A stretch of 64,000 nt of DNA from Heterotrichella gracilis (taxonomy: Eukaryota; Sar; Xanthophyceae; Tribonematales; Xanthonemataceae): assembly GCA_032358255.1 (NCBI GenBank), contig JAULBX010002113.1:1-64000 (forward strand), read 5' to 3'. The stretch's first letter is position 1, and each line of letters begins with the position of its first letter. The position numbers and the translations under genes were made by a program. Positions 1 through 64,000 of the stretch are shown piece after piece. The notes under the pieces are model-generated. The model made no database searches and was not told where the DNA came from. It worked only from the letters and a program-made list of their open reading frames with translations.

Positions 1-330
1 ACGGTTTAGAATGGGTTGCCACAATCTTGCTGTTGAAACGGGCCGGTGGCAGCGCCCAGCAGTGCCTCGCCACTCTCGCCATTGCCCCCACTGTCCAGGT
101 CTGGTTCAGGATGAATTGCATTGGATTTTACATTGCACCCACACGGGCCCTGTACGTGCTCAATTTCCTGCATTATTTTCTGCTGTCTCCAGTATGCGAG
201 ACTTATTTTCTCACTCTACTAGTCATGACATTGTGGACTTAGTGTCCCTAATGTGTGCCCTTCAGGGGCACACAAGGCAATAAGCCGATGACGGCTGGGA
301 CTGCCTTTTGTTTGTTTGTTTGTTTGAATA
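1..330 (+). mobile_element. LINE (non-LTR retrotransposon) 3' fragment
   Basis: A reading frame open from the left edge to the stop at 281-283 encodes a cysteine/histidine-bearing tail. It contains ETGRW, then a CPHCPG / LHWILHC zinc-knuckle-like pattern, then an RAQFPALF segment. This layout is typical of the C-terminus of reverse transcriptases from green-algal LINE-like elements. A (TTTG)4 tract at about 307-326 could be the 3' tail. Only the last part of the element lies in the window, so 5' truncation cannot be judged. The call rests on motif layout alone. Confidence 0.6.
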
Positions 331-793
331 CCGCCTTTCATGGTGAGGGGCGCGAATGGACACCAGCCTCAGAAAAACGCAAGTATTGAAGCAGTCAACC
401 AAGACACTGATGAGGACAACATGCACCTTGCTTGGTCTTCGTGTCCCAGTCCTCAAACAGCCTTGAAATGAAGGGCATTAAAAGGCTTGACAGCATCAAT
501 CCAGGGGTATAAAATAATATTGGGGATTAGAAATTATGCCTGGCGTCCCGAGGGTGACTTTGAGCCGTCACACGCTGATGTTTTAATGGTGCCTGGTGCA
601 TGCATTCCCATTCTCCACCGCGCAAGACGCGATACACATCGACAACCTCTCAATACCCAGGAGTCACACATCGCACCAACCAGCCAGCCCCACCACGCAG
701 CTGCATTCAGCTGGTATTTTCCTGCGAAGATGCCCGCACAAACCACTACAAATAAGTGACCTGGCACCACCCATTGGGACTAGCAACCTCACC
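331..793 (+). promoter_or_regulatory. Upstream region / 5' UTR of the eIF4B-like gene
   Basis: This stretch lies between the LINE tail and the eIF4B-like start. Short open frames on both strands show no recognisable protein. It presumably holds the promoter and 5' leader. I see no clear TATA box or other defined element. Confidence 0.35.
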
Positions 794-3700
794 ATGTCTG
801 CTACTGCTGAAAGGAAGCTGGAGGATGTCTTGAAGCCAACGCTGAGCATTCAGTCATGGGCCGATGAAGAGCCCGAAGAGGATGACTGTACGTGCCGGGT
901 CTCCACCCCACTTTGAGAACCATATCCCGGCTTGTTGTGCGTAATCATCGGCCGTGCTTCACGGCCCATATCTGACACGCCTCCCTGCTGCAGTTGTTAG
1001 GGAGGTATCCCCACCTCGGCCCGCACAGCCATCGGCTGCAGTGCGCGATGCAGCGGCTGCTGCTGCTGCTGCGCTGCCCGAGTACCCGCCCTGGAAGGTC
1101 TACGTTGGAAACCTGCCCAGGAACTGCACTGCGGAGGAAATAGGCGACGTCTTCCGTCCCTTGAAGGTACGGTACGGAACAGCTCGCCAGGAGCTTCCAC
1201 CCTGTGTTCCTGGGTCAGCACTCCAGCGCTGGGTGTCTGTGGTGTGGGTGGGTCACTGCCTTCAGTCAGCAGCTTTCACCCCCGTCTGCTGCAAGCTATG
1301 CCCACAAACCTTGAACCGGTGCATGCCTGCTTAGCCACCTCTTTCCCTTGAGGAGTAAGCTGTCCCAACACCTACATGGGCAGTGACTCATCCTGGCACA
1401 GCTTGCTTCGCCCTGCAGCTCTAACTCAACCCCTTGTGCTTAGGTCGTGCAACTGCACGTCCAGAAATCCTAAACCCTAAACCTCCTTCCTTGTGCCTAG
1501 GTCGTGGACCTGCACGTGCTGAAACACGAGGACACCGGCAACCCCCGAGGCGCCTTTGTGGAGTTTGACACCAAGGAGGACTTGCTGCAGGCGCTGTCAC
1601 GCAATGGATTCGTAAGTACTGGAATTTGTAGCACGTTTGTAAGTTGTACGCCTGGGGGGTCCATGTTAAGTGCACACCCACGTCCCATACGCCCGAATGC
1701 CTGCCTGCTAGGGAGGGGTAAGGCGCACACTAGTGCGGGCCAAAGGGCTCACCATAGAACCAGTACTCGGCCTTACAAATGTTCTAGCAGTACAGCACGA
1801 TTAGCAGACTGTGCATAAGACTCACTTTAAAGCACATGCTTTTTCTGCTGCAGCCAATGCAAGGCCGGCCTCTGAGGGTGGATGTTGCGGCACCCAAGCC
1901 AGGTGCGTGTTCTTGCTGTGCCGCCTTGGCATGCACTCTTGTGTATGACCGGCAACAGTGGCCCGGTAAAAAGTGCTGCGATGACTCATTTTACCGACAC
2001 ACCCACAGGTGGTTCTAGGTCTGGGGGCTTTGGAGGCGGCTACCGGGACAGGGACAGGCGCGGGGGCCCAGATTACGGCGACAGGGGGGGCGACAGGAGA
2101 GGTGAGGCAAAAACACTTGGGGCCAGACCCGCAACCCTGTTTTGGAAACCACTGCCGGGTGGAATGGGTAGCAAGAGGAAAGCGGGGTATGCGGGTATTC
2201 GGCTTGACTGAGACACCCACATTATCCCACAGTGGAGGCAGTGCCAGGCACTTGACATGGGGTACGGCATATCTAGCAATGCTAACCTGGCTACAGAGCT
2301 TGAGTTGCATGCAATGACTTACATGCATGCATATACTGACTTGCACTGCCCACGTTCTCTCCACCGTACCGCACTTTACCCTGCCCAACGCTGTGGATGG
2401 CGCTTTCAGGGGGCAGCAGCTTCGGACCCCCAGGAGGGTTTGATGCAGACAAGCGGGGAGGGTACGGCTTTGACGGCCCACCACGCGAAAGGGGCGATTT
2501 CGACAGGCGGGACGCAAGGTATGAGCACATGGAGAATGTCATGGATCATAGCGCCACCCCTGCCACCTGGCCTGAGAACATGCATTGGGATTTGTGCACA
2601 TCCCTGGTGACCCTCACTGAGCCTCCTCTGGCGCATGCAAATGGGGTCGAGGGTCATGGAAGCACTTTGCATGGCATGGCATATAAAGTAGGCGGAGTAC
2701 ATGCAACAGCCACACAGCTCAACCCCTCCCTCCCATTCTGTAGGGGCTCCAGAGGGTTTGAGGATTCCTACTCTCCCCGTGGCAGAGGATTCAATGACAG
2801 GGGGTCCGACTTTGACGGTGCGCACTCCCTGCACGCACCACCTCAGATCCGATGCCATTGCCGCACCCTGCCATGCAGGGGGTTGCGCTTGCTGCATGGT
2901 GTCCAGCACTGGTCTCCTGGCTGTGTGGGGTTAGCCAGCATTGGCTCACTGGCTGTGTGGGGTCAGTCAGCCCCATTGGTTCTGTTTAGGGTTTAGGGTT
3001 TGAGGTACAGCCCACGGGCAGCCACCCAGCACTGTCCATGTACCATTATGAGCATGAAAAGCCACAAGGTCAATGGTAGTAAATCTTGGGCTGCACGGAT
3101 AGATGCAGGGCATGGGAGGGGAAACAGTTGGCGGGACGCTTGTGCCCTCCTTTTTCCTTGACCAGGGGGCCTGTTTTAGCACAGGCTGCTTGGAAATGTA
3201 ATAATTAATGGGCAATATTAATGGTAAATAATATGTACTCAATTGCTTATCCATTTGTGGCTGCAGGGTATGGCAGGGACCGAGGGCGCCGCGATGGTCC
3301 CTCCGAGTTTGACAGCAGGAGGGGGGGGTCAAGGGAGCGGGACACGTGGGGAGACAGGCGGCCCTCAGGGGGTGAGTCAGGTGGCATACGCTGCGATCCG
3401 CACTTGCAGACGCTGTATATGAACAGCTGAAGCGCCTGGTATATACATGCATTCCAGCAACCTTGGAGAGGGGGGGCGGTCCTTTGTGCCATTCACAAGG
3501 CGCACATCCAGAGGGCAGATCCAGAGGGCAGTAGTTTACGTCAACCGGAGTAGAGCTGTTACAATTTTGCCAGCGCAATGCCTTGCACAATAAAACTGAT
3601 TAATCCATCCTTGCACATAAAAACTGATTAATTTATCCTTGAGAACGACGATTGTCATTGTTTGGCAAGTCGCCATGGTGCTGTAGGCTGGATTTTTGCA

Positions 3701-6700: not shown

Positions 6701-8084
6701 CCACGGACATGGCCATGGGAACGGTAATGGGTACAGGGGTATTGGCCGCGGCAGGGGGCGTGGCCGCGCCCCCCCGGGGCTCGAGCGCGAGCATGGTAGG
6801 CACGGCGAGCATGGCGGACGAGGGGAGCATGGTGGGCGAGGCGAGAGGGGGGGTCGCGTCGGCGAGAGGGGAGGCCGCCGCGGCAGGGGAGGGGAGTACC
6901 ATGGCGGCAGGGGAGGGGAGCATGGCGGCAGGAATGGGGAGTTCCATGGCGGGAGGGGAGGGGAGCACGGCGGGCGTGGCGAGGGAGGCGGCCGTGGGGA
7001 GGGAGGGGAGGGCGGTGGCCGTGGCGAGTTTGGCGGGCGGAGAGGGAGGGGTCGGCATGGCGATGGCGAAAGGTGCGCTGGGTTTGGGACAAGGTCTTGG
7101 GGTGCACTTATCAGTGCAGTACAGGGCCTGGGGCTGCGAATTTGCGGCGGTGGTGCGGGGGGGCATTTCTTGTTGCGCGCGAATGGCCCCATGTGCATGC
7201 ATATGCGGGCTGAGGGGTGGCGCAATGTGCATGGTGTGCAGATGGTGGCACATGAGATTTCATGCGATGTGGGCTGTGTGCATTGCTGCACACTCCACGG
7301 CGCAGATGGCGATGTGTGATGTAGTGTGTTGCTTGTCGCAGGGGGAGGGGAGGCAGGGGCCGCGGGCGGGGAGGTCGCCAGGGCGATTGGGTTGAGAAGG
7401 AGGCTGATGGCGGCGGGTGGCAGACGGTGTCGCAGACCCAGGGGGACTTGCGACCACATGCCAGGTAAACCTATGAAACCATGAAATCATAACAGTAGAA
7501 CGCTGACCCCATGTACTAACCCCAGAAAGTCCCATGGATGTAGGGGGCTTGCGGTCACACGCTTGGAAAACTTTTAGACCCTGAACCTGTGCTTACCCAT
7601 GGCCGCACACCAGGGGACAACCACTATCGCGATACCACCAGGATGTGGCATTGTTGTTTGCAGTAGCTGCTAAGTAATGTCCACTGTCGAACTGTAAACC
7701 CCAACTGGCAGGGCAGACTCCAATGTGGCGGAGGCATCCATTAACATTGACTACTTAAATCCTACACCCATGTGGATGCCCTTCCCTGAACCCTACACCA
7801 TGGGCAGGACTGGCCCCAAGGTGACCGAAGCAGCCAACGCGCAAACCCTAATTCCTAACACTAAACCCTAAACCGTAGTACCTGAACCCTACACATGGCC
7901 CCAAGGTGACAGAGACAGCCAGCCCTCAAACTTTTATACCTGAAGTTAAGCCCTAAACCCTAATACCTGAACCCTGCACCTTACCATGTGCAGGCCCGGC
8001 CCCAAGGTGACAGAGGCAGCCAAGCCCATGGAGCCAGCCCCAGCCAAGCAGACCAACATGTTTGACCTGCTGGGGGACGAATGA
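794..8084 (+). CDS. EIF4B: eIF4B-like translation initiation factor with N-terminal RRM
   Basis: Exons: 794-887, 994-1166, 1501-1611, 1854-1902, 2009-2101, 2410-2518, 2744-2817, 3267-3371, 3932-4018, 4266-4474, 4828-6112, 6373-7072, 7342-7464, 7994-8084. All junctions are GT..AG and phases sum to 1100 residues. Landmarks in order match animal eIF4B: an early SWADE motif; PPWKVYVGNLP opening an RRM (RNP2 near residue 67, RNP1 RGAFVEF near 104-110, ending RVDVA); a long D/R/G-rich region built from small exons; RPKLTIQPRS, then NPFGSARPVDT and a charged REIEERDRK segment near residues 320-368. eIF4B stimulates the eIF4A helicase during 40S recruitment. Oddities: about 430 residues of Ala/Pro/Lys-rich repeats (exon 11) and a Gly-Arg-Gly-rich block (exon 12), making it nearly twice the human length. 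The protein ends NMFDLLGDE. ATG 794 is in ACCATGT context. Confidence 0.88.
4903..6112 (+). repeat. Low-complexity Ala/Pro/Lys-rich coding repeat in the eIF4B-like gene
   Basis: Most of exon 11 encodes irregular repeats of APAPA, AKPAAP and (T)APEFKP-like units. It is GC-rich and lacks globular character. The opposite strand is also open for over 500 codons here, a composition artefact of the GCN/CCN codons. The tract is probably disordered and likely to vary in length between strains. Confidence 0.8.
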
Positions 8085-8166
8085 ACGAGGGCTAATCCCC
8101 AAAATTTAAGCCCTAAACCCTAATCTCTACCATGTTTGAACTGCTGGGGGACAAATGAGCGAGGGC
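7803..8166 (+). repeat. Partial copies of the last eIF4B exon, interleaved with telomere-like tracts
   Basis: The core GGCCCCAAGGTGACAGAGGC of the true last exon (7998 onward) also occurs at about 7811 and 7897 inside the preceding intron, with a few substitutions. Another partial copy at 8129-8166 repeats the exon's end, including CTGCTGGGGGAC and the stop region, just past the real stop. CCCTAAA-type motifs separate the copies. They look like decayed local duplications of one exon. Confidence 0.85.
7843..7875 (+). repeat. Interstitial telomere-like tract (CCCTAAA type)
   Basis: Degenerate CCCTAA/CCCTAAA units lie between two decayed copies of the last eIF4B exon. They match the plant-type telomere repeat but are short and imperfect. 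Confidence 0.75.
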
Positions 8167-8999
8167 AAGCAGCAAACGAGGGCTGATGGGGGGAATCACG
8201 CAGGCCGGGTCATTGTGGGTGCTTTGCATATGTCATCGGCTGGGCGCGTGGCTTGTGTAGGGGTTTGGGTTACAATGGGAGGCGAGCAAAACGGGGCTCA
8301 ACACCCAGAGTAGTTACCAACTGGGCACCACTCACTTTGGGACGTTGGGATGATAGTGCGGGGGTCCCATAAACGCATGCAGTTTGTCCATTCAGGTGTC
8401 AATCGCAGCCTGCAGGCAGTTGTCGGCGAGTTGTGGTTGGCAGGGGCGCTGTGCTTGCTTGCTGTCCACGTGTGTATGTTGGCTTGCGGGTGCTTGCCTA
8501 AGAGACATGTGGCGCAGGGACAGTTTTTTCCTTTCGTGTTTTTGCTGCTTTAGGATGTGAAGGGGGTTTGCTCCTGTGCTTGCCAGTGATAGTGGTAATT
8601 GCTGGTGTCAGCGCCGCAATTACTGCCCTTAGCGCCCTTTCAGTGCGTTGCTTGCTGGTGCTTTTCCTGCCTTATAGGTGGCTAGAATAGCAACCATCCC
8701 TTGCTTGCCATTGGTCGCAGTTTTTACTAGGGTGGGCGCCGGTAATTGGTGGCGCTAAGCACCCTGGGAGTGCGAACCTTGCTGATGCGTGTATTGCCTT
8801 GAAATTTTAGGGAGCACCTTGGCGGGACCTATCAGGTGCCTCAGGCTGGCGTTGTATGGTATGCTTGTGGAGACAATCTGGATGGGTGTTGGGATAATCA
8901 TTGAGATTGGCAAGCGGGCTGGGGTTGGGATTGAGCGGCTGTGCAATTGTTGGTGACTCGCCTGGTGGGTGAGCGCTGTCAAATAGTGGCCTGACAGAG

Positions 9000-9004
9000 T
9001 GTAA
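9000..9004 (+). terminator. Candidate poly(A) signal TGTAA for the eIF4B-like gene
   Basis: TGTAA is the usual chlorophyte polyadenylation signal. This copy lies about 915 bases past the stop. Assignment is by position only. Confidence 0.25.
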
Positions 9005-10280: not shown

Positions 10281-13200
10281 TCAGCCCCCGATGCCCTTTG
10301 TGGCCAGGTCGTACACGCTGACAAAGATCTCTGCTGTGATGAGCACAATGATGATCCACTCCAGGGTGTCTGACTTTTTGTTCTGCATCATCTCCAGGAA
10401 GTACTTGAGGTTCTCCTGGATCACCTCAAGCTGCAGGGGCACAAAACAGTTTCTCATGGTCCCAAACCCTGTCTCAACACCCTGGAAACCTATTTAGAAA
10501 ACCCCAACACCTACTGAGCCAAAAACCTCTAAAACACCTACCCTGAAGCCTCCAATCCCCCCCTTTGTGCCCAAGTTCTCGAAAGGTCCTTCACCTCCAC
10601 CTCTTCACGCAGGTACTGCCAGACGCAGATACACACCCCCCAGAAACAACTAAAATCCTACACCCACAACCTAAAACCCTAAACCCTATCCTGTAAACCC
10701 TCCAACCCTCACCTTTGTGCCCATGTTCTCAAACCGGTCCTCCACCTCCAGCTCCTCACGCAAATACTCCCAGATCTGCCCATACTGCGCGTGCTTCCAT
10801 GCGGGCGGGTAGCGCTCCAGCAGCTTCAGTTTTGTGATCACGTCTGTAAGTATGACGTTGGTGCGGGCCACCAGCTGCAGCAGCTCGCTCTTGTTGATGT
10901 TCTTCAGCTGCCCCGTCTCCAGCATGTTGCGGTTCATGCTGCAGAACTGCTCAAGCAGGTCGTCGATGTGCCTAAGGGTGAGGCAATCCACTCTCAGACG
11001 ACCGTTAAAATCACCAGTGCCAGTACCAGTACATTTGCGGCGTTAAACCCTTGCACCTCACATGCCATTGTGGTAGTGCAGCCCATGACATACAACGATG
11101 GTAAAACGTACTGTGACGTAAACAGTTACCACATCGTTGTCGTTCACCACATCAACATGGTGGAGCAGACATGCAATCATCACCCACACAGCAGCAATCA
11201 CGACTTACTGTGAATACACATGAAATACGACCCAGTCAGCATCCATCATGACTCATTGCGAGTAAACATCCAGTCACCATTTTTACTTTTATTTTTCCAA
11301 ATCATGACTTACTGTGAGTAGGCATCCAGCGCCACCGAGTGGCCCAGCACTTGCGATATGACCTGCAGGTTGGCCTTGTCCAGGATCTGGAGGGTGATAG
11401 CATCGGGTTCAAGCTCGCTCCACGTCACCAGGTCAGGTTGGATCGTGACTTGAAGATCTGGGCACACAGAAGAGCGATCATGTTAAATCGTGGCTTCGGG
11501 CTTTAGGTCGAACTTACCCTGGCAATGCCCTTATAAGAATAACAATGCTTAGACTGTGCTCGCCGCCAATATCAGTCTCGATGCATACCATCTGAAAGTT
11601 AGCAAAGCTTTTTTATCTGTGAGCTAGGTAAGCTAAGTAAGCTATTTTCTTTTGTAAATTTGTTTTTGAGTCACGTACTTTGCTATTGCGGTTGAGCACC
11701 CCATCGACTGTGTGGTCCTCAACTGCCTCCAACTAGCACCAATGATATTATATACCTCTATTACATAAAAGGAAACAAAATTGTGCTCACCTTCCTTGCT
11801 CTGCCGCTTGTGCGCCGCATCGTCCGTGTGGCTCCTCACTGCCTCCAGGTAGCGTTCCCGCAGCGCCTCATCCGCAACATTGAACAGCACCACCGCGCCG
11901 TACTTGAAGGCAACCATGTAAGGCTCCTTGGGCATGCCCTGCAGGAGAACGCAGTACCAAGGGTCAGGAGTTATGGCAACCATGTAGGGCTCCTTGGGCA
12001 TGCCCTGCGGGAGAATGCAGTACCAAGGGTCAGGAGTTATGGCAACCATGTAGGGCTCCTTGGGCATGCCCTGCGGGAGAATGCAGTACCAAGGGTCAGG
12101 AGTTATGGCAACCATGTAGGGCTCCTTGGGTATGCCCTGCGGGAGAATGCAGTACCAAGGGTCAGGAGTTATGGCAACCATGCAGGGCTCCTTGGGCATG
12201 CCCTGCGGGAGAATGCAGTGACCAGGGGTCAGGGGTATGGCAAGGCAGTGACCAGGGGTTGGATTATAGCAATGTGGTAGCTAGGGGTACATTTACTATG
12301 CGCACTATCCAGGGAACGCCTGACGGTCACTATGCAGCGCATTGTTGAGGGTCTAGGTTTACTGAAACGCTCGACCCTGACCCCGAAACAGGCGCTTTAT
12401 GCATGCTATGCAGGGAGGAGATGCAGCTGTTCCATGCATTCCAACAGGATCGTCAGTACAGTTTCAAGATTTAGGATTTTAGGGTTTTAGGGTTTGGTTA
12501 GTCAAGAGCCGCAGGAACTTACAAAGACTGGGTCATGGTGCTCCACATTGTCTGGCTTGACCACCGTGTCTGACAGCATGATGATCACGCTGTCCCTGGT
12601 CAGTTCGGTCCAGCCGCACCCCTTGAGCGCGTCGTCTATCCGCAGCTCATAGATGTTGATGCTGCTGCCTGCAGGCATAGGGTGCAGGGTTTAGGGGTGC
12701 CATGTTCCATGCTGCTACCTTTGGGGCATAAGGCAGGTGCCATAGTGTCATACTGGGATGGTTCAGTTGGTGTGGTGCAACTGGTACGGTACTGGGCAGG
12801 GCTGAGATATTCCAACTGGTGTGGTGGAAGTGGTATGTTTATAGGGCGGGCTGCCGTGCTGGTTCAGTAGGGTGGGCAGGCGAGGTCTGCTCAGCGCAAC
12901 TGACAGATTAGTGGGTTCTTTCTTCATCTGGCATGGTCATGACGTATGGTGGACTAAACATAAGCCTGCCCAGGCCGGGTTGGGTGGCGCAAAGTGTGTA
13001 AAGGTGAATTGCTTCTCTGGCTGCACTGCACTGTAATACCCAAATCCTAAACCTTAACCTTTAACCATGTGCACGCAGCTCACCAACGTAGAAAGCGTGC
13101 ACTGGAAAACAGATCGTCCTGGGGGCGATTTTCAAGGCTGGCCGGTGCGCAGTCTCCTCGTCCCCTCGCAACTCCTCCTCTAATCGTTGCAGCATCGCCT

Positions 13201-48010: not shown

Positions 48011-51000
48011 TCACCCATACCGCTCAAACAAGCTCTTCTGCACCGCCTTCCCCTTCCTGTCCTTTTTCCATTGCTCCCCTCGTCCCCCCTCGCGCCTTCC
48101 ACCTCTGCCCCCCCCCGCACCCCCATCCCCGCCACCCCCCCTGCTGTACGCCGAGGCAGGGATGGGTACGGGGTAGTCTGTCCCGATGCTCACCCCATAT
48201 TGCTCCTGCTCCGCTCGTGACATCAGCCAGGGCTCGTGTATCCTTGATGCCGGCACCTGCTGCAGCTCTGGAAGCCACGTGCGCAGGTAGTCGCCCTCCA
48301 GGTCGTAGTCCTAGGGGAGAAATACTATGATATAAATAGGAAAACAATAATTATATGAACTTAAAATATTAAATACAGTTACGTGCGCAGGTAGTCACCC
48401 TCCAGGTCGTAGTCCTAGGGGAGAAACATCATATTATGAACATGCAAACCAATAAACATTTACATTCAAATCACTTGATTGGCACAGGGGTTCACACTTT
48501 AGGATTTAGAGTTCACATTGTAATGTTCAGGATATAAGAGTCACGTGGCAGGCCAAGAGCCTCTTGGAAGGCACAGTGCGCTTGGAGGGGAGACGCATCT
48601 GACAGAATTATCGCAGAAGGGACACAAAAAGGGACTAAAAAATATCACAGGGAAAGCAGCTCACGCTCCCACAGCCTAAAGCGACAGTAACGGCCACGCC
48701 TGCTGACCACGCCTGTTTTACCTGGTTTTACCCGACATTCTCTTGTGATATACTATAGTCCTCTGGCTCCCACCTCCCTTCCCCCCATCCACCCACCTTG
48801 GACTGCTTGACCACGTTGAATTTGTTGATCCTCCCCCCGGTCAGGCCTGCGGCAGACACCCAGTTCCCCCAGTTGCTGCACACGTCATAGTCCAGCAGCA
48901 CGCTCTCGAACCAGTCGGCACCCATGCGCCAGTCCAGGCCCAGGTCGAGGGCCAGGTAAGAGGCCACGTTCTGCCTGCCGCGGTTGGACATGAAGCCTGC
49001 ACGGGAGGGCAGGTGTTGGTTTGGAGAAATACATCAATAAATGCTCAAAAAAAAACTACGCAGCCTAGCCTTGACTAGGTTTGTGCGTTAATGATAGAAA
49101 GGAGCAAGGCGCTGCCCCTCCTGTCCACTATTTTCCCGACCATATAAGTTCGTGGTGTAAAAAGTGTGTTTGTGTGTGGGGTGGGTGGGTGGGAGGGGTG
49201 CAAGGACGGGACATGGGGCCTCACTGATGCCACATGCTCTTTTCAGCACCCATATTTAGGTCTTCTCCACTCAACTTAAAGACAGCGCACTAAGCAAAGA
49301 CATGTAGCGCACTCCACCTGATGTGTTCGTCTCCCCCAATTGCCACAGTATCCTAAGCAAGGGTACACAGCGCGCCTACCTGTAGCCTTCAGCTCCCGCA
49401 TGTTGGCGTCAACCAGCGGCATGCCTGTGCGCCCATCCCGCCACCGCTGGAACACGCCCGAGTCCCTGCCCCATGCCTTGCCCCCCCTGCCCGCAGTGCC
49501 CTCCTGGAGGAAGATGCGGTTGCCGTGCTTGAGGGCAAAGAACCTGCGTGCAGAATTGTCCTTTGTTGGTTTGAACGTTGGCAGAACATCAGGCAGTGAC
49601 ATGCCACACAAAATGGACACAAACTCTGCATAAAACATGTAAACAACCCCCATGCGGTGGGGTCGCAATGGGCGCACCTGGCACTCTGCATAAAACATGC
49701 AACCATCAGAGCCTGTCACTGCCCATCTCCCATTTTTCAAGTTATTTCACATAACTTGAAAAATTACAAATATCAGGCAGTGACATGTCGCATGACAACG
49801 TACATGACACAAATTGCGCAGAAGACACGTACACACTAACATACGATTTAGTTTCGATATTTAACTATGTGACACACATGACCGGCCCCCACCATTTGCA
49901 GCACGTGTAACACTAGCCCTGAATCCCCAATATTGTGCACCCACCTTGCCTGGCCGCTACCCCAACCCACCTGAAGTAGTCGCGCCAGATGAGCTCAAAA
50001 ATCACCCAGTAGGTGGACTTGTTCCCTCCCCGCTGGCTCTCATACTTTTTTATCTCGTGGTAGATGGTCCTGGGGGAGATGCAGCCGTGCGCCAGCCAGG
50101 GGGCAAATTTGGTGGAGTAGTCGCCCCCCAACATTCCGTTCCTGGTGTCAAAATAGGTGGCCAGCAGGTCGGTGTCCCACAGGTAGTACTTGAGGCGCTT
50201 GAGGGCAATGCTTTCACCCCCTCGGAAATCCAGCACAGCCTGCAGGGGGTGAAAATATGTGAGGGTAGAGACAAGGGAGGAGCTTTATGGTGTTGGCTTT
50301 GGGCCACAGGAAATCAAGCACAATTTGCAGCATTCCACTTCGCTAATAATCTAGCATTATAATCTCCCTATTTGAGTCCCCCTAGTAACATGGAGACAGT
50401 GTAGGCACGCACATGTACATGTAGCTCCGGCGTGGCGAGTGAGGCCCCTCCCTGAGGCACCACCACATTCAAGTCCTCCACACAGCCGGGGCTGAAGGCG
50501 CGTGACGGGCTGGACCAATCGCGCGGCAGCGGCAGGGTATTGGTGCCAGGTGGCGGCAGCAGGGGGCGCGGCTGGAGGCTAGACTCAACCTGCAGCAACG
50601 AAGGGTTTAGAGTTTGGCTAGGGTTTGTGCAGAGGGTGCCTGCGCCAGGTGGCGGCAACAGGCAGCGCCGCTGTACTCAGGCTGCAGCGGAGAAGGCAGG
50701 TGGGCATGGGCAAGAAAATACACGAAGCCACAGATGTTACAAGAAAGCAAAGTATACAAAAAGCAAAACGCTGTGTATATAATTACTGTTTCTTCACGAG
50801 GGCAGAAGAAGAATAGAACGCGCGCAAAAAGAGGCGGCATAAGAAAGGGGACAGAGATATGCCAAAAACCCAATTTTGTATGTCACCTACCTTGCCCCTG
50901 AAGGGGGTCAACACATCAGGGAGGTCGCTCAAATCAGCCCTGTAGGGCAGGTCGGCCTTGTCATACAGCGTTGGCCCCCACAGCAGCTGAAGCTTGGCCC

Positions 51001-52195
51001 TGCCCTGTATGGCGGACCGCACGTGCTTCTCCACCCGTGTTTCCTCGCTGGTGGCCTCCCCTTGGGCCAGGATGGTGGTGGGGTGGGGCGCTGGGTGGGG
51101 TGGCAGCAGCTCTGCAGGAGCATTATGTGCAGTGAGTCAAATTACAACTACACATATGAGTGCAATTACAGCTGCAACTAAGGCCCACTAATGCAGGAAT
51201 ACCGGGCATCATTACCCGTATAGTGGGTATAAGTACAAGTTCAATCACTTGCATGTCCCCTTGGGCCAGGATGGTGGTGAAATGGGGCGCCAGGTGGGGT
51301 AGTAGCAGCTCTGCAGGGAGTACCACAGAGTGTAATGCTGCTCACGTGTTCTGCATTCCAACAGGGGTGCATATGGGATGATTAGTCTATTCCCATGTGC
51401 TGCAGAGAAGTGCTCCAGCGTGGGTGCATTGTGGTGTGAAATGGCCATGCAAGCATTTTTGTGGTGTACTACTCACATCTGATGCCATGCAAGCTCACCA
51501 GCAATGACATCTTCAGGCTTGCCATTACATATGACCAGGTCGCTGCCGATGGCCCGCAGCCGCTGCTGCAGGTCAAGCACGCACTCCAGCTGGAACTTTG
51601 CTCGGAACGTCCCCGTCTTGGGGTTGCCCCAGGGGGTGGTGGCGAATGCACGGGGATCGAAGCAGTACAAGGGGACCACCTGCCAGAGGAACGGGTAGCT
51701 GAGAGTTTGCTTGCAGAAAGCTACGTGCACCGCGTGGTGGATGTGGCAATAGTGAATTTTGCTGCCATTTACGTTTCGTGCCTGTAAGCGCAAGGCGTGC
51801 ATATGTGTATATAGCCAAATGCACAAGGGCCTTTGCATGTGGTCTAGTAAGTGCCACTCAGGTGATGAGCTCTGTGCCACTGGAGTTTATTGAACTCCAC
51901 TGTTCCATTAGAGTTAGTGCACCACGCCTGCAGCTGTGTGTAGAGCAAAAATGCACAAGGACTGTGCACACTTAGCTGCAGTGCCCCATGCTTGAATCCC
52001 ATGTAGGGCGCACACTTGACTATGTGAGCCCCCTAGGGCATAGGCGCAAGCACGCGCAGCACTCACCTCATTGACTTTGCCACTCTTCACCAGCTGTGCT
52101 GCCTGGTGGAACACGGCATTGTCATGCAGCCGCAGGTCGTTGCGCAGCCACAGCACAAGCCGCTGGCCCCCACCGCTGCCCCCCACTGTGGCCAT
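48011..52195 (-). CDS. CRY-DASH: CRY-DASH cryptochrome / photolyase-family flavoprotein
   Basis: Exons in gene order: 52195-52067, 51679-51499, 51111-50891, 50589-50413 (or 50419), 50239-49971, 49543-49380, 48996-48797, 48310-48011; about 546 residues. Hallmarks: [152 protein letters not shown] and EPWLMS, matching Arabidopsis CRY3 in order. The family binds FAD and an antenna folate and repairs or senses UV/blue light, usually in organelles. The C-tail is Gly/Arg-rich. ATG 52195 follows an open stretch RLCVVASASTGGPRG behind an acceptor (TTGCAG). An upstream exon with a transit peptide is likely (a donor-bearing frame ARAILTRPSLRGWPRQ lies at about 52550-52600), but its start codon was not found. 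Confidence 0.94.
48383..48414 (-). repeat. Copy of the CRY-DASH last exon start
   Basis: GTGCGCAGGTAGTCACCCTC plus CAGGTCGTAGTC and the acceptor CTAGGGGAGAAA repeat 48279-48318 with one substitution in the exon part. The offset is 104 bases, so using the copy as acceptor would shift the frame. Confidence 0.92.
50611..50690 (-). repeat. Decayed copy of CRY-DASH exon 4 start
   Basis: GTGCCTGCGCCAGGTGGCGG and CAGGCTGCAGC repeat 50545-50598 (GTATTGGTGCCAGGTGGCGG...CTCAACCTGCAGC), about 95 bases upstream in gene sense. Confidence 0.8.
51246..51318 (-). repeat. Copy of CRY-DASH exon 3 start
   Basis: CCCCTTGGGCCAGGATGGTG and GTAGCAGCTCTGCAGG repeat 51058-51117, about 200 bases upstream in gene sense. 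The acceptor CTGCAG is retained. Confidence 0.9.
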
Positions 52196-53673: not shown

Positions 53674-54269
53674 TCACTTGCCCAGCCTCGATTGCAGCAT
53701 AGACATGAGCGCGGGGTTGGTCTCCAGCAGCTTTTGAAGCCTGACGGGGTCCTTAAGCAGGTTCTGCATGGGGCACAAGGGGAAGGTTAAAAGAAAGGAG
53801 GTTCCGCATGGCACAGTCAAGGGCGTGCACAGAGGAGGTTCCACATGGCACACAGGACCCTTGAGCAGGTTGCGCAGGTGTGGGAACACCAATAGAGCAA
53901 CCCTCTGACACAGCCATGGAAGACAAGCTGCTTAGGGTTTAGGGGGTGACAAGGCCATCACGAAGCAAAAGTTGTGCCCATGCCATGCGACACAGCCATT
54001 TACAGGAGCAATTGCACGGGAATAGGACCTTATGGCAGGCGACAGGGCCATGTCAACAAACACAGGAACAGGACCCTGTGGTAGGAGGGCATGTGACAGG
54101 GCCCATGAGGGTTGGCATTAGGGTGTCAAGGCTTTGGGGTTTACTCACCGCCAGCGCATCAGGATTGCCCAGCGCCATTGCCAGCTGGTTGACTGGGGCA
54201 GGCCCAGGCGCGCGGCCACGGCCCATGCCAGGTAGCGCACCCTGAGCCACTGACTGCTGCTGCTGCTGT

Positions 54270-54302
<33 letters not shown>

Positions 54303-57300
54303 GGATGCATCTGTGGTGGTGGCGCATGCTGCTGCTGCTGTTGCTGCAAGTGTGGTGGTGCGACATGGTGCTGCTGTGGCTGTGGCTGTGGCTGTGGCTG
54401 TGGCTGTGGCTGTGGCTGTGGCTGTGGCTGTGGCTGTGGTGGCACCATTTGCTGCTGCTGCTGCTGAGGTGGCGCACCGTGGTGCGGCTGCGGCTGTTGC
54501 TGGGGTGGCACGAACCTCTGGTGCGGGGGCACCATGGCCTGCGGTGGCTGAGAAGCCATACCCTGGGGCGGGTGACCACCAACAGGTGTCTGTTGCATGG
54601 CCGCCCCTGGGATCCCGCCCATCCCCGCATGCATCCCCGCCCCCGGCTGCTCCACGCGGTGCATGGGTCTTGCGTGCATGCCACCGCCAGGTGTCGACAC
54701 CATACCACTGCCAGCTGTTGCCAGCATGCCGCTGCCAGCTGTCGCAAGCACGCCATTGCCAGGTGGCGGCTGCACGCGGCTGCCAGGTGGCGGCGCGTCG
54801 CTGGTGCCGCGGGGGGTGCCCATCGATGGCGCCGGCGGCAGGGTCCCGAAGGACGCTGATCGCGACGGCGGCTGCGTGCGGATCGGCGCCAGCACCGGCG
54901 GCGCCTGTGACGGCGCTTTGCGCTGCGCCGGCTGTGGAGGTGGCTGTGGAGGTGGCTGTGGCTGGCGTGGGGGCGCGGCCAGTGGCGCGTCGGGTTTCGG
55001 CGGCGGGGGTGCGGGCCTGGCGGGTGGCGGCGCCTCCCTTCGCTCGTACTCATCCACATGCTTCGAGCTTGGGCGGCTGCTTGCGCGGTCCATGCGCGCT
55101 CGGGTGGCGGCATCCCGGGGCCGGCTGGGCGCCACCACAGGGGGGAGATCATACCCAGGCGCAGGCTCGGAGGAAGCCATCGGCTCCTCCTTGGGCGGGG
55201 GTTTAGGCTTCTTTGCGGGGGCGTTGCTGACGTCGGCGGCTTTTGTGTCTGAGAACTGCGCGTGGCGGGAGCGCTTTCGGGGCGCGATGCCATCCGGGAG
55301 GGTGGCGGAGGCGCAGGGGGTGTCGGGGTGGGGGGCGGTCTCCCAGCGCTGGGGGGTGCGGCCGAATGGAGGCACCTAGGGGAGGTGGAGGAGGGGGGTG
55401 CTGTCAATGAGGTGTCATGTGGAGCGTTCTGCTAGGGGTAGCAGTGAGGAGCACCCAGTTTTAATTCTTTTTTGCTTGTTTCTGCGGAGCCCAATGGTGT
55501 GCATATTCCCTACGCATGCAGAAATTATATGGGACGTGACAGCTTCCGGTGGAGGTGCCATACATGGCTCAACCCATGGATGGTTCACTGCACGGTGACA
55601 AGGGTCAAAGTTCGCGCCATGGAAGGTGCGCACTAGGGTATATTGGGTCAATACTTGAGCCATGGGTTGTGCAGGATCCCCATGGGGGGGAGTCACGTAC
55701 CGCTTGCGTGGTCGCCCTTGCGCTGATGTTGCGCCAGAAGGTGCGCGTGGGGGGGTCAAAGATCTGGCCCAATGTGCCCCCGTCAAACGGCTCAGTCCTA
55801 CAGGGCAGCAGCAGCAACGTGAGGAGTTGGAGTCTTGGTGGGGTGATGGGTACCCTAGGGTTTGTAAGTGTGACTGGGTGAACTGCATGCGCCATACGGT
55901 ACACCACCCAAGACCACAAATTCCACCCAAACAAATCTGGCCCCAAGAATAATCAGAACGCGCAACACCACCACCACCTACACATCCCACCCCAGGCACT
56001 CCCAACCCTAACATTGAAAACACCTTGCCCCTCATTCCCCACCTTTCGGCGCCAGCCACCCCCTTGAGAGACGTCTGAACAGCTGCTGCAAACTGCCCAG
56101 GTGCGCTAGGTGGCATGTAATGCAAGTCAATCTCTGATTTCTCGTCCCCCTACCTCCACCTTACGCACTCCCAACCCTTATCATAAAAACACCTTGCACC
56201 AGTACCCCCTAACCCCCCCAACCACATCCCCGCCCTACCTTTCGGCGCCAGCCACCCCCTTGAGTGACATCTGCACCGCTGCTGCAAAGCGCTCTGGTGC
56301 GCTGGGTGCCACGTAGTGGGGATCCAGCTCAGCATCCCCCGGTGCGCTGGCTGCTGCTGCTTGAAGCACGTCTGCCACGTCTGCGCAGATATGCTTCATG
56401 GATTCGTCGCCGCTGGCCTGGCCTGTGGGGGTGGGGAGAAGGGGTGGGTGTGCGAGGTTCAGGGGCAATTGCTCGATTCGATTCCACACATTCAGGCCAC
56501 AGGCCCGCGAGATCCACAGCATCAATTTATTCCACAGGCAAAAACTACAACCTTTCCTCTCTTTTTCCCCCAGGCTGTCACATCGACCAAGCAATTTCCT
56601 CCCTGCCCCTCAATATCATACCAACCAAGACCCCACCCTCCCCTCTCAACCCCCACCCACCTTGCTCAAACACGCGCGTGGCGGCCCACTTGAGCGCCCC
56701 CTCGATGTTCACCCTACCACCATCCCCCTCCTCCCCTGCCTGGGAGTGCCACTTGGCGGCGCCTGCACGCAGCGCGGCCTTGCCAGGCCCATGAGACAGC
56801 ATTTGGCGCAGCACCCTGCGCGCGATGTGCGCATTTGCACCCATGCGGGGGACCAAATCCAGGAGGACAGCGACCACCAGGGATGCCTGCGGGGGAAAAT
56901 GGGTGGGGGGGGTGAGGGGATGCCCATGGGAGGAAATGGGAATGGGATGAATGAAACATATGAATTGGAATTACACACAATCCTGGTCAGTGGATTCGAC
57001 AAGATGACAGAAGCATTGTCGCCATTACCACTAGGATCATAGCTAAATTTACTCAATTGGTACCATTCCCACCATACCCCCACCCCCACCCCCACTAAGA
57101 CCAAAACCACCCCCACAACCCCAACCCCACCTCCGCCAGCTGCGGCGTGTCCTGCATCTGGCACTGCTCCTGTGTCAGCCCCGGGTTGAGCGCCACCTCA
57201 GCGTTGCACAACACAGTCACCACCTCCATGGCCATGGTAACAAGCGCAGCGGGCTCGGGCCCCTCCGGCAAGCGCTGCACCAGGCGGGGGGCCAGGCGGG

Positions 57301-60300: not shown

Positions 60301-63300
60301 ATCCTGTATTGACAAACTTAATTCTGGTTTACACTTTCCTTGCACTCACACACCCACCTTGAGCATGCCCACCAGCCTCCCCAGCGCCTCAGGCACCTCA
60401 GCCAGCGCCAGCACCACCACCCGCCCAGTAGTGTCGCCATCCAGCATCTGAGGCACAGGAAAGGGATCAATTAGCGAGTGGGGCGCAGACAGGTGAATAA
60501 GTCAGCGCCTGAAAAAGCCAGCGCATCAAACTCACAAGGGGATCAGTCAGTAAGTGGGGCGCAGACGGGTGAAAAACAGGGTCAGCGTCTGAGGACCCCT
60601 GAGCGACAGAAACATGATGAGAAGCAGTCAGGGCCATTCACCCTAAACCACACGGGGCTACACCCTAAACCATACCTGCACCAGCGTCTGCACAGCCCCA
60701 GCCGCCTCCCTCGACCCTGGCAGGGACTCCACCAGCCCCCGCACGGCCTGGTACCCACGCAGCGCGTCCCGCAGCGCCGCCGCCAGGTCGCTGGCAATAC
60801 CCCGCTTAGGGTTTGGCGCCTCGCTCTGCGATTGGGTGGGGGTGTCTGGGTCCAGCGCTTGTATGATGAGCAGGGTTGAGCGCATGTGGTGGGACAGCAG
60901 GGCGATGCCGGGGCCAGAGGAGAGCAGGACTGTGAAGAGCGCCTTGGCACCTGGAAAAGGGATGGGGTAGCGTTTTGGTGAGTGTATTGTTGAACATTTG
61001 AAGCGTGGGTTATCTTGATGTAGGGTTCGTGGCAGGGTTCAGCCCCTTGACGATCTAGGGTTTAGGGTTTCCCACCGCACCTGTGAGCAGCGGCTGCAGC
61101 AGCGCCACCTCCAGCCCCGGGGCGGTTGTCCCCAGCTCCTTGAGCATATCGCTCTCCTCGAGGTGGCGGCTGTGCATCCCCGGGATGTGCAGCAGGGCGG
61201 CCAGCATTGGCAAAAGCTTGCGCCCCGCCAGCGCATCCAGCACAGCCACGCTGGGCCCTTGGGCAGGGTTTTGGGGGGAGCCTGGGAGGAGATGGGAGAT
61301 GTGAGGAAAGAGAGCATGGGAAACGTCTGGGGTCGATAGGGTGGGCATGCTAGGAATGCGTTGCAGGGTGACCAGGGAAAGCAATTCACACGAGCCGAAC
61401 CCCCACCCCCCACCACCCACCTTCCAGCGCGTCTGCCGCCCCCTCCCCCCCTACTGCCCCTCCCCCCACCACCTCTGCCATCTTGAGCAGCAGCTGACCC
61501 GCCTCCTGCAGCAGCACCGTGGCCTGGCGGGTGTGGGTGGGGGGGTGGCCCACTGCACTGTGGCCGCGCACCACCTGCTCCCCGCACACCTGGAACTGGC
61601 AGGCCAGCTCATAGGCGCGCAGCGTGCGCAGCAGGGGGCGGCCCACTGCGGTCACCTGTGGGTGAGGGGGGAAGCCGGTGAGTGTGTGTGTGTGTGTATG
61701 TGTGGGGCTTGAAACGCCGTGTTGTTGTTCAGCAGAGTTTGGTATAAAGTTTGGGTTTGGGGTTGTGAAGTGGCAAGCAAGCTTGGAGTTTTGGAGGGTG
61801 CGGAGCAAGGGGCGGCCCACGGCGGTCACCTGTTGGTGTGGGGAGGGGGTGGTGTGGGGGAAGGGAGCACCTACGAGATGTTGTAACCTAAAGGGTTTAC
61901 AGTTTAATGTTTGTGAAGTGGCAGGCAAGTTTGCAGGTATGGAGGGTGCAGGGAAGGGTGGGTCTACGGCGGTGGTGGCCTGTAGAAGGGGAGCGGGTGG
62001 TTGTGGTGTTGGCGGAGTATGGGCAGGAAATGGCATAATAGAGTGGTGGATAGGTGAAGTGAATGCTTAATTGGCCATTAATATAGGCAAAGATTTATGC
62101 AGGCAAAGCAACAATTCAGCTGTATGGTATCCTCACAACCCCTTAACCCACCCTGGCTGAACCCCAAAACCCTTGAAGAATCTCAAAACCCTACAAATAG
62201 CCCTGGTTAACCCCCACGCCACCCACCGCCGCAGGCTGCATCTGCAGCAGCGCATCCGCCAGGGCCCCGTAGCATCCCGAGAAGTCGCGGGACCAATCCC
62301 CGGGGCCGGGCAGGCGCTCGCGGATGACAGGTGGCGCATCGCGGGTGGTGCGGGAGGAGGGGCGGGGAGGGGTGTCCTTGGCTTGGGGCCTGCAGGCGTG
62401 GTGGAGCGGGGGTTGTAGTGGGGGATGGGGGGAGAAGGGTGTGGCAAGCATGCAGCACTCAACAATACGACATGACAAGGCATGTCATCCCTTGATGTGT
62501 GCCTGCGGCCCCGTCCTTGCTCTCATCTTTCCTCCCCTTGCACAAACAAACATGAATCTGCAATGAATCACACAAGCAAACGTGAATCTACAATGAATCA
62601 CCCCAAAAAAATCAGAAACCCTTTGTTTCTTACCGTGCCGCGTCCCCCTGGGACCGCTCCGCGTGCCTCCCCCGGGACCCGCTGCGGTGCTCCCCCCTGC
62701 CCTTCTCACGCTCCCCCACTTGCTCCTTTTCCCTCCCAGACCTGCTCCGTCCCCGGTCCCGGTCCCTATCCCGGTCCCTATCCCTATCCCTGCTCCTAGC
62801 CTTTTCACGCTCCTTGCTCTTGCTGCTGTCCCTCTCCCTGTCCTTGTCCTTGGATTTGCTCCTGTGCTCGGAGCTCCTGGCCCTGCGCTCGCTCCTGCCC
62901 TCCTCGTGGCCTCCCCTGCTGCGCTCCCCTGACCTCCCTGCACACACACAGGGAAGAATGGGATAAATGACAGAGTCCAACATCTTGCCAAGCTATGTGC
63001 AGTTAGCCAAACCACAATCTCGAGGAATCCACTGTTGTTAACGACTTGGCCAAGGAAACATACAACTCTTTGATTGACTATATTCAATTTTCACATGGTA
63101 CTCCAAACAACATCGTATGTATTGTACCTGCGCTTGCAGACGCTTTGGCATCGGTGGCTGCATCTGCAAGCGCCTCTGGCAGCCCATCATGTGGTCCAGC
63201 GCCCCCATTGGCTGCCCCAGCCTCGCCAGCAGCTGCATGACAGCATACATGAGCACCAGTCACATGCGAGCCATGATGTTGTGATACTTCATGATCTGGC

Positions 63301-64000
63301 AGGAGTGGTACTTCATGATCCCTCCACCATGCAGACGTGTTTTGTGTCAAGATGTTGCACACGCGTCGGGGCAGTCAGCCTTGCACCGCGTGAACTGCAC
63401 TGATTCCAAACGCATGGACCCAACGAACTATTAACATTAGCAGCCAACGTTCATAGTTCATGGTGCGGTCAGCTGATCCCAGGTGATCCTAAGTGATCTG
63501 AGCAATTGGGATGGTGCAAAGACAGCAGTAAGGTGCAGAAGCGCAAAGGCATGCTCCTACCTTGCTCCCCAGCTGCAGCGCCTTCCTCCCCTTGTGTGCC
63601 CCCCTCCTCCCCCTCCTGATACCCCTCCCCTTCATCGTCCATCCCGTAATCCACCTCCTCCTCATAGTAGGGCTCATCAAAGCCAACCTGCTCCGCCATC
63701 TCCTCCTCAGTGGAATGCTCCCCTGGAACTGCACCCGCCCCTTGATCCCCGGGTGCCGCATTGGCTTCCTCCCCTTGATCGGTGTGCATCGCCTCGGGAT
63801 CAATCCCCTGATCGCCATGGCCCGCCTCAGGATCCTGTTCATACTCCCCCTCAGCACCCTCCCCTTGCTCCCATTCCTGTTCCCCGCCCTCCTCGCCCTG
63901 GCCCTGGTACTCCTCCCCCCCTTCCATCGGCTGGTCCCCTGCTGCATACGCATGCTCCTCCCCTTGCATGGCTTCCTCCCCTTGCAGCTGCTCCTCACCC
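53674..64000 (-). CDS. VIR: VIRILIZER-like subunit of the m6A mRNA methyltransferase complex (5' end outside window)
   Basis: Eighteen exons, gene order: beyond 64000-63561, 62937-62634, 62389-62227, 61655-61421, 61281-61081, 60950-60676, 60447-60358, 60096-59880, 59638-59337, 59111-58598, 58254-58078, 57732-57590, 57337-57131, 56886-56661, 56422-56239, 55797-55701, 55375-54149, 53763-53674; about 1697 residues visible in one frame. The order resembles plant VIRILIZER: a very acidic stretch (EEEVDYGMDDEGEGYQEGEE), an RS/RD-rich block, a long Ala/Leu-rich helical (armadillo-like) region, a disordered Pro/Gln-rich tail and a C-terminal motif LLKDPVRLQKLLETNPALMS then MLQSRLGK. VIR scaffolds the MTA/MTB/FIP37 methyltransferase in the nucleus. 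The N-terminal Vir_N domain would lie beyond 64000 and cannot be checked. Recognition is from layout and the C-terminal motif, so moderate. Confidence 0.68.
54244..54480 (-). repeat. Coding CAG/CAA and CAG-CCA repeats: poly-Gln and (Gln-Pro)n
   Basis: Inside the large VIRILIZER-like exon the minus strand encodes about 16 glutamines in a row, then a Pro/His/Gln stretch, then about 12 Gln-Pro pairs. The nucleotide units are CTG and GGCTGT on the plus strand. The tract is likely disordered and length-polymorphic. Confidence 0.93.
55985..56290 (-). repeat. About 190-base tandem duplication of VIRILIZER exon 15 end and intron
   Basis: TTTCGGCGCCAGCCACCCCC and the following 35 bases occur at 56043 and 56240. 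The flanks CACTCCCAACCCT and AACACCTTGC are also duplicated, so the unit includes intron sequence. Only the right-hand copy continues into the full exon. Confidence 0.88.
57765..57895 (-). repeat. Decayed copy of VIRILIZER exon 12
   Basis: CATTCAAGCACGGGTGCGGC and AACAGCCCATCCCACCG repeat 57687-57725 of the exon (CATCAAGCACGGGCGCCGCC...). The copy lies in the intron upstream in gene sense. Confidence 0.75.
60455..60600 (-). repeat. Tandem repeat in the intron next to VIRILIZER exon 7
   Basis: GGGATCAATTAGCGAGTGGGGCGCAGAC is repeated as GGGATCAGTCAGTAAGTGGGGCGCAGAC about 70 bases later. Both are followed by GGTGAA and a GTCAGCG(C/T)CTGA word. Confidence 0.85.
61595..61995 (-). repeat. Three-copy repeat of VIRILIZER exon 4 start (about 145-base period)
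   Basis: The exon start (GCAGGGGGCGGCCCACTGCG, GTCACCTG at 61631-61658) recurs at about 61805-61833 and, more decayed, at about 61948-61982. Both copies carry upstream GGCAAGC...GGAGGGTGC words that match exon interior. The middle copy keeps an acceptor-like CACCTG. Confidence 0.87.

Follow-up and report, generated by a model that had tools for sequence, protein, structure and literature searches.

Direct duplications of exon edges, often separated by telomere-like runs, in the genome of the alga Heterotrichella gracilis

What process places copies of exon edges in the neighboring introns, often with telomere-like CCCTAAA or TTTAGGG runs between the copies? This question is raised by the first 64,000 nucleotides of contig JAULBX010002113.1 (hereafter, the window) in the genome assembly of the xanthophycean alga Heterotrichella gracilis (GCA_032358255.1). 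The initial annotation of the window had listed at least 25 such sites in eight genes, with telomere words beside or between many of the copies. We found 34 edge loci in the window (32 exon-edge duplications and 2 duplications of an edge against intergenic DNA), which are distributed across all eight predicted genes, and the spacer contains an exact telomere run of at least 8 nt in 13 of the 34. Both statements therefore hold. The exon-edge duplication pattern is real, and it extends beyond the window. We consider that the loci probably arose when staggered double-strand breaks were repaired by mutagenic end-joining, in which telomerase sometimes added filler.

The window corresponds to positions 1–64000 of contig C23 in a 68.5-Mb assembly of 903 contigs. 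It was analyzed together with two 100-kb blocks (positions 100001–200000 of contigs C2 and C13), which were selected by position alone, giving a positional sample of 264 kb. Another 40 tract sites of 1 kb each, distributed over 34 contigs, form an extra set, and one of them lies on C23 beyond the window; these sites were hand-picked for contig spread from 200 places listed among 396 and 1004 matches. A self-trained hidden Markov model predicted 47 genes with 380 exons and 334 introns in the 264 kb. The median lengths are 153 nt for exons and 294 nt for introns, and the consensus sequences are AG↓GT(G/A)nG for donors and TGCAG↓G for acceptors. The eight window genes are translated without internal stops, which within exons is a built-in property of the gene finder. 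A domain scan of four predicted proteins detected DUF155 twice, a photolyase, and F-box plus JmjC. As a check, we used a second gene model, in which the telomere words were masked and a single noncoding model was shared; 85–98% of the positions agree between the two models.

We identified 86 spaced local direct duplications in the 264 kb, counted as one locus per place; they were merged from 119 rows in which the spacer is ungapped and measures at least 5 nt. They comprise 68 exon-edge, 2 edge/intergenic, 7 intron-only, 7 exon-internal, and 2 intergenic loci. A predicted intron lies in a copy at 66 of the 68 exon-edge loci, and the other two are gene ends. In this first classification, the subset with an identity of at least 0.9 contains 26 edge, 2 intron, 1 exon, and 1 intergenic loci. 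The masked model assigns 62 of the same 86 loci to edges, 11 to introns, 8 to exons, 4 to edge/intergenic, and 1 to intergenic DNA. At a score of at least 20, the window, C2, and C13 hold 57, 49, and 45 duplication rows, respectively (151 in total). After one Markov shuffle of the 264 kb, no duplication reached a score of 16, and two scored 15.

A survey with 40-nt probes gave the same picture. A nearby noncoding copy was found for 50 of 601 exon-edge probes and for 3 of 636 exon-interior probes, and two of these three belong to one 66-bp array. Inverted copies were found for none of the 601 edge probes and none of the 636 interior probes. The adjacent-intron side holds 43 of 45 edge probe matches, 41 of which lie within 200 nt. 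When a noncoding match within 300 nt was counted, the frequencies were 48 of 600 at exon edges, 57 of 2025 in intron interiors, and 18 of 2078 in intergenic DNA; 26 of the 57 intron-interior matches sit inside edge-duplication loci. Copies are thus commoner at exon edges than elsewhere, as had been proposed, and both the edge excess and the intron tract excess described below persist in C2 and C13 without the window. Assembly error is unlikely as the source of the whole set because most copies are identical neither to the exon nor to one another. The 200-kb positional sample has two 100-N assembly gaps, and both fall between copies of exon-edge duplications; the assembly may therefore have collapsed or interrupted long arrays, which would then be undercounted.

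The copies are dead and decay neutrally. At 56 of the 68 exon-edge loci, the real copy and the dead copy can be distinguished unambiguously, and only these were used in a codon test. The mismatch between the real exon and its copy is 0.091, 0.077, and 0.165 at codon positions 1, 2, and 3, respectively. The two-fold higher mismatch at position 3 is the expectation when the copy changes without constraint and the exon can change at position 3 only, and functional copies and gene conversion were rejected on this basis. The growth of decay with distance from the exon, which the initial annotation had pointed out, is seen, but it reduces to one-sided neutral decay because only the real exon is constrained. 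Past the junction, the copy resembles the adjacent intron better in 35 of 44 cases and the joined exon in 6, with 3 ties; at least 8 of 10 positions match the intron in 19 cases and the joined exon in none. The copies continue into the intron, and their source is therefore unspliced sequence rather than spliced mRNA. Among 311 exon-exon probes, 43 had matches, of which 17 were labeled as spanning.

The offsets between the copies are mostly 50–225 nt, with two modes near 105 and near 190 nt and a dip at 120–140 nt. Their medians are 106 nt in the telomere class, 102.5 nt in the spacer-free class, and 185.5 nt in the non-telomere class, where 22 of 30 offsets lie between 150 and 225 nt. The second mode is close to the nucleosome repeat length. 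The spacers are of two kinds: 26 have a telomere run (25 are significantly telomere-like), and 29 do not. Two of the 29 run-free spacers of at least 14 nt are telomere-like (control, 4 of 150). Run-free spacers match the DNA past the dead copy in 10 of 23 cases (p ≤ 0.05), which indicates that many long-offset loci are decayed simple tandem units. An origin of the spacers from repeats was rejected, as both of the two searched are single-copy. The ending of many copies 5–12 nt inside the intron was also discarded as a feature in its own right; it largely reflects decay of the intron part of longer units in the non-telomere events and an alignment cut by masking in the telomere events.

The telomere runs are themselves concentrated in introns. 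Exact runs of at least 9 nt in the 264 kb number 149 in introns, 14 in intergenic DNA, and 7 in exons, versus means of 7.7, 3.7, and 1.7 runs, respectively, for 19 composition-matched control units. The masked model gives 129 in introns, 15 in intergenic DNA, and 26 in exons; the last count is probably inflated because masked letters cannot stop a reading frame. In the whole genome, exact telomere-type 21-mers occur 428 + 406 times, versus 0 for the reversed word. The most frequent telomere word is AAACCCT. The run density per 10 kb is 14.4 in introns versus 1.64 in intergenic DNA (10.7 versus 2.3 with the masked model), and it is 22.3 within 45 nt of a junction versus 8.0 at 45–100 nt (15.0 versus 7.9 with the masked model). 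The near-junction excess over 45–100 nt is only 2.8-fold (1.9-fold with the masked model), and tracts are also found deeper in introns, where they favor GC-richer DNA (2, 17, 15, and 28 by quartile). Peaks of tract frequency lie 10–30 nt past donors and 10–50 nt ahead of acceptors. Tract frequency has no visible dependence on exon length or exon-edge GC, and GC was rejected as a driver of the edges because no trend exists across exon-edge GC quartiles.

In the masked model, 12 runs occur in the 28.6 kb within 400 nt of a gene and 3 in the 36.2 kb of farther intergenic DNA; therefore, the gene flanks are intermediate in tract density. For 44 genes, the 800 nt that follow the stop hold 12 runs in total, the closest at 16, 32, 95, and 107 nt. 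Only 5 tracts lie within 800 nt upstream of the 44 genes, each at least 189 nt away. None of the 47 predicted starts has a tract within 45 nt upstream, compared with 61 of 666 splice edges. The absence at start edges (p = 0.026) and a higher frequency in the 3′ part of genes (33/254 versus 26/358, p = 0.025) are both marginal and post hoc. At the 40 extra sites, the tract lies in an intron in 36 and in a predicted exon in 4 (the tract was masked for the prediction), and none is intergenic; the non-exon sites have a median distance of 53.5 nt to the nearest exon versus 197 nt for random noncoding points.

Tracts and duplications are associated with each other. A direct duplication flanks 50 of 105 intron tract clusters (48%), compared with 263 of 1585 points matched for junction distance (odds ratio 4.6, p = 1.6e-12), so that the proposed association persists after this matching. 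Among the extra sites, 18 of 40 are flanked by a duplication (15 with an exon inside) versus 47 of 916 random points. Conversely, the spacer contains a telomere run at 26 of the 68 exon-edge loci. Of 25 unambiguous telomere events, 16 have the run between the copies only, which fits insertion in the same event; the clean forms at 17201 and 31902, in which by eye the filler lies between the copies only, are examples. In the other 9 of 25, a run also lies past the dead copy, which fits later duplication of a tract-bearing unit. The spacers of telomere events match the DNA past the pseudo-copy in 10 of 23 cases.

The orientation of the filler was counted at 24 telomere-bearing loci (the outer-run count has 25, with one stop edge added). 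On the sense strand, donors have 8 fillers of C type and 8 of G type, and acceptors have 8 of C type and none of G type. If telomerase is responsible, either orientation is expected because it can extend either broken end, and the G form would be lost beside acceptors because TTTAG would act as a false acceptor. Within 10–30 nt ahead of acceptors, tract coverage is 2–3% for the C type and at most 0.1% for the G type. Within 45 nt ahead of acceptors in the introns of the window, C2, and C13, TTTAGGG occurs 3 times and CCCTAAA 27 times on the sense strand. The 8:0 orientation at acceptors would allow selection against cryptic AG to be gauged in nature. The tract ends are in a non-random telomere phase (210 tracts; chi-square p = 7e-4 for starts and 3e-9 for ends). 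The genome encodes a telomerase RNA-binding domain (contig C626) and Ku (contigs C771 and C380).

The direct orientation and local placement of the copies, the filler between them, their unspliced source, their neutral decay, the orientation pattern of the filler, the intron tract excess, and the edge duplication excess are observed features, and the steps that we infer from them are breakage, fill-in, telomerase action, and purging. A staggered double-strand break, or paired nicks on opposite strands, would leave overhangs that cover part of a coding exon. If both overhangs were filled in before joining, the overhang would be duplicated (X A Y → X A f A Y). More than one third of the visible events would involve a prior extension of a 3′ end by telomerase, and f would then be a short TTTAGGG/CCCTAAA run; later rounds of ordinary tandem duplication could copy the unit together with the tract. 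A duplication wholly within an exon would destroy the protein and be lost, while one across a splice edge or a stop would keep one good edge and survive as neutrally decaying DNA of the intron or the 3′ flank. TTTAG beside an acceptor would also be lost. Break repair, as suggested in the initial annotation, thus fits the anatomy of the loci, with a copy–run–copy order, direct copies only, both orientations at donors, and a non-random phase of the tract ends.

Several observations weigh against this end-joining explanation. The intergenic and intron-only duplications that random breaks predict are nearly missing. No telomere run is present in the spacer of 42 of the 68 exon-edge loci, so that telomerase is unseen in most events. 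At the threshold applied, 55 of the 105 intron tract clusters are not flanked by a duplication. In the events with a tract in each unit (an outer run in 9 of 25, a spacer match in 10 of 23), the tract may have preceded and favored the duplication rather than filled it. The phase bias of the tract ends could come partly from selection against certain words near splice sites. CTC1 was not found in a CTC1_2 search, in which the controls gave no match either. Moreover, all gene models are ab initio predictions, and the events were read from one genome of one strain.

Ordinary tandem duplication might also occur everywhere, with the edge pattern arising from survival, geometry, and longer visibility and the telomere runs being a separate, microsatellite-like intron feature. 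Exon interiors are copied in just 3 of 636 probes, as purging predicts, the copies decay neutrally, and the non-telomere spacers match the DNA past the pseudo-copy in 10 of 23 cases, all of which are consistent with this explanation. Exon-internal duplications would break the protein and be purged, and exon-derived copies are recognizable for longer; both explain part of the edge bias. The edge share is also raised because units near 100 and 190 nt find limited room inside introns. We modeled the geometry from the first gene model alone, with the full unit length (equal to the offset) and every placement that spares coding exons. Head-to-tail arrays whose spacers were too small for inclusion in the 86 loci were re-added at offsets of at least 45 nt, and offsets above 260 nt were dropped; the second intergenic locus (offset 270) is outside this size range. 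This model predicts shares of 0.27 for intron-only, 0.29 for edge, and 0.43 for intergenic events, and the expected edge share of genic events is 0.52 with the full unit length, which was used, or 0.28 with the visible copy length. Simulated noncoding duplications of equal age were detected in 243 of 330 cases, and in 98 of 165 with more indels (59–74%). For 68 edge events, 37–47 intron-only and 60–75 intergenic events are expected, but 8 and 1 were observed. Units containing coding exons are thus in excess by a factor of about five relative to introns and of roughly thirty to sixty relative to intergenic DNA (few events); both factors would drop with the masked model, which has less intergenic DNA (64.8 versus 85.3 kb) and 11 intron-only loci. 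A bias to coding-exon-containing units remains after purging, geometry, and visibility are modeled. In addition, the telomere runs, which are independent of exon conservation, are also denser near junctions and in introns. Ubiquitous tandem duplication is therefore unlikely to be the full explanation. The biased retention at borders that the initial annotation offered as an alternative explains a part of the pattern, and the excesses of about five-fold over introns and at least 30-fold over intergenic DNA remain beyond it.

The order of events might be reversed: tracts might have been inserted near splice sites without duplication, or retained there because they aid splicing, and the fragile runs would then have promoted tandem duplication. 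Interstitial telomere repeats have been reviewed as fragile (PMC6410037, in its accessible part), every unit bears a tract in the arrays at 33061–33307 in the window and at C13 5622, 88286, and 92777, and an outer tract is present in 9 of 25 events. However, the tract lies between the copies alone in 16 of 25, 42 of 68 exon-edge duplications have no tract, and the 8:8 orientation at donors is not expected from a splicing function. We regard this order as doubtful. A function of the runs as telo-boxes or intronic splicing elements appears quite improbable. The plant telo-box has the core word AAACCCTA, which as AAACCCT is also the commonest telomere word here, and the C-type runs 10–50 nt ahead of acceptors are located where a branch point could sit. 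However, the runs are not located in promoters or 5′ leaders (none at 47 starts; 5 tracts upstream of 44 genes versus 149 intronic), donors show no strand preference, and the flanking copies are dead. The birth of introns, through introner elements or AGGT tandem duplication, might be considered because the copies hold splice sites and are located in introns. Among the 334 introns, no sequence families were found beyond local duplications and one small repeat; the 14 rows of an intron BLAST comparison correspond to neighboring introns of one gene, a four-intron small repeat, and one 29-nt match. In-register similarity between donor and acceptor reaches a score of at least 12 in 5 of 331 introns versus 0.5 expected, and three of these five belong to C13 arrays. 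Intron gain was rejected on both grounds, and we consider it highly improbable.

Under the end-joining explanation, coding-exon DNA would have to take most of the breaks, and introns and intergenic DNA only a minority. The junction itself need not be the break target, and coding exons as a whole may be targeted. The clustering of breaks at exon-intron borders that had been suggested is therefore retained as an exon bias; the borders are partly survivors, and a hit at the junction is not required. We tentatively suggest, with less than even confidence, that coding exons are preferred sites of staggered breaks, where some feature that distinguishes exons breaks the DNA, telomerase competes with joining, and the scars drive intron growth. 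Such a feature may be a spliced-RNA hybrid with its edges at the splice junctions, exon-phased nucleosomes, or an exon mark. The absence of tracts at start edges and their excess in the 3′ part of genes are hints that lend faint support. Exon methylation, inferred from CpG depletion, was considered and is unsupported (observed/expected 0.62 in exons, 0.46 in introns, and 0.57 in intergenic DNA).

Tandem duplications with filler are known in plants (natural insertions in rice; paired nicks) and have been attributed to patch or paired-nick breaks. We know of no exon-edge concentration or telomere filler among them. The accessible parts of two reports attribute mammalian short interstitial telomeric sequences (ITS) to telomerase acting during break repair and give the plain target-duplication class as 4.6% in rodents, 16% in primates, and 4.5% plus 3% complex in the horse; introns hold no more than a random share of them, 31% in human (PMC2246262, PMC7215372). 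As far as described there, the tracts of H. gracilis resemble short ITS in being internal short telomeric runs, well above chance, that are sometimes found between direct target duplications, but they differ in that 48% of intron clusters have a direct duplication, intergenic tracts are few, and the genomic distribution is not random. Fill-in end-joining makes small tandem duplications, and CST/Pol alpha-primase is needed at 3′ overhangs (PMC8355091, accessible part). The duplications found here are likewise direct, local, short, and head-to-tail, sometimes with filler, as expected when both overhangs are filled, and a telomere-end complex is involved in that system; the accessible part of that report does not describe telomeric filler, whereas here such filler is frequent and the events are concentrated at coding-exon edges. 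Plant telo-boxes, as presented in the accessible part of PMC10167121, are regulatory elements located in promoters; the core word is common to both, but the present tracts are mainly intronic. In Chlamydomonas, one interstitial telomere band of about 200 bp has been described (PMC6549138, accessible part). Among the matches listed in searches of the open-access literature, no title or abstract opening reports telomere tracts concentrated at the exon borders or in the introns of an alga. Our preferred reading of the pattern combines known kinds, end-joining scars and telomerase filler, and its strange part is that coding exons are involved and that intergenic and deep-intron DNA is largely spared.

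If the 264 kb are representative, extrapolation to the 68.5-Mb genome gives roughly ten to twenty thousand duplications of exon edges, and the intron telomere runs would number in the tens of thousands. The genome would then be a dense natural archive of repaired breaks, where every scar could be dated by its dead exon copy and would often be tagged by telomerase. One organism could thus show the origin of the breaks behind tandem duplications, the competition between telomerase and end-joining, and the lengthening of introns. The individual loci are given in Table 1.

Table 1. Duplications at exon edges in the window, and the two gap-containing loci of the C13 block.
Feature	Position	Strand	Details
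Acceptor-edge duplication	1432..1524	+	copy 1432-1467, real edge 1489-1524, filler tcctaaaccctaaacctcctt between
Acceptor-edge array, three decaying copies	7797..8023	+	telomere runs separate the copies
Stop-codon edge duplication	8057..8176	+	edge 8057-8103, post-stop copy 8131-8176, 13-nt CCCTAAA-type run between
Donor-edge duplication	10585..10774	-	sense TTTAGGG-type runs between; spacer also matches DNA past pseudo-copy
66-bp tandem array at acceptor	11909..12243	-	about five copies, in frame within predicted exon of DUF155 gene
Donor-edge duplication	15508..15653	+	no telomere run
Donor-side duplication	16291..16475	+	offset 151, no telomere run
Donor-edge duplication, clean form	17201..17328	+	copy, 14-nt filler gtaaccctaaaccc, copy; pseudo-copy without outer tract
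Acceptor-edge duplication	17967..18234	+	offset 183
Duplication at predicted end of DUF155 gene	20169..20386	-	spacer 2 nt
Edge duplication, simple tandem form	20458..20673	-	no spacer
Acceptor-edge duplication	21252..21652	-	about 181 nt, offset 212
Donor-edge duplication	22364..22701	-	telomere runs of 8 and 15 nt between, another beyond
Edge at end of HECT-type gene	24799..24960	-	by eye a stop edge; 16-nt telomere run between
Edge duplication	25041..25283	-	offset 201, no telomere run
Edge duplication	25911..26053	-	offset 111, no telomere run
Donor-edge duplication	29936..30167	-	offset 193, no telomere run
Edge duplication	30869..31154	-	94 nt, offset 192; copy holds predicted 33-nt exon
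Donor-edge duplication, clean form	31902..32046	-	filler of 16-nt telomere run + 1 nt, absent past pseudo-copy
Acceptor-edge duplication	32179..32365	-	offset 138; tiny predicted exon in copy probably gene-model artifact
Donor-edge array, three copies	33061..33307	-	gtact then telomere run (12-22 nt) after each copy
Acceptor-edge duplication	33910..34076	-	telomere runs of 10 and 13 nt between
Donor-edge duplication	34303..34575	-	84 nt, offset 189; spacer matches DNA past pseudo-copy (decayed simple tandem unit)
Acceptor-edge array, three copies	34656..34970	-	with telomere runs
Acceptor-edge duplication	38076..38181	+	telomere runs of 9 and 13 nt
Acceptor-edge duplication, simple tandem form	39005..39182	+	
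Donor-edge duplication	39169..39321	+	11-nt run in telomere-like spacer; overlaps 39005..39182, so outside the 34
Donor-edge duplication	40051..40184	+	22-nt decayed telomere-like filler; score 15, reached by 0/100 shuffles
Acceptor-edge duplication, simple tandem form	42881..43093	+	offset 107
Acceptor-edge duplication in photolyase/cryptochrome-type gene	48277..48471	-	
Acceptor-edge duplication	50545..50673	-	telomere runs of 9 and 8 nt between
Acceptor-edge duplication	51057..51317	-	offset 199; spacer single-copy genome-wide
Edge duplication	56037..56318	-	offset 196
Edge duplication, simple tandem form	60436..60592	-	
Edge duplication	61621..61843	-	offset 174; spacer matches DNA past pseudo-copy
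Gap-containing loci L019, L027	spacers at C13 block 4811-4938, 88334-88469		100-N gaps between copies

Some of the duplications may reach the proteins. Each unit of the array at 11909–12243 corresponds to 22 codons and has a CAG acceptor-like end, and alternative splicing or protein lengthening is possible. Doubled peptides are present in the predicted proteins at 21252–21652 and 30869–31154 (for example, LSISYSLTQSTK twice and an 11-residue peptide twice); they are either gene-model artifacts or duplications captured as coding sequence. The window also contains two DUF155 (RMND1/Sif2-type) genes on the same strand (10281–13456 and 20303–23690), with one predicted gene between them. A low-complexity coding stretch at 54254–54526 contains (GCTGTG)11 and CTG repeats, which are read as glutamine and proline runs on the minus strand.

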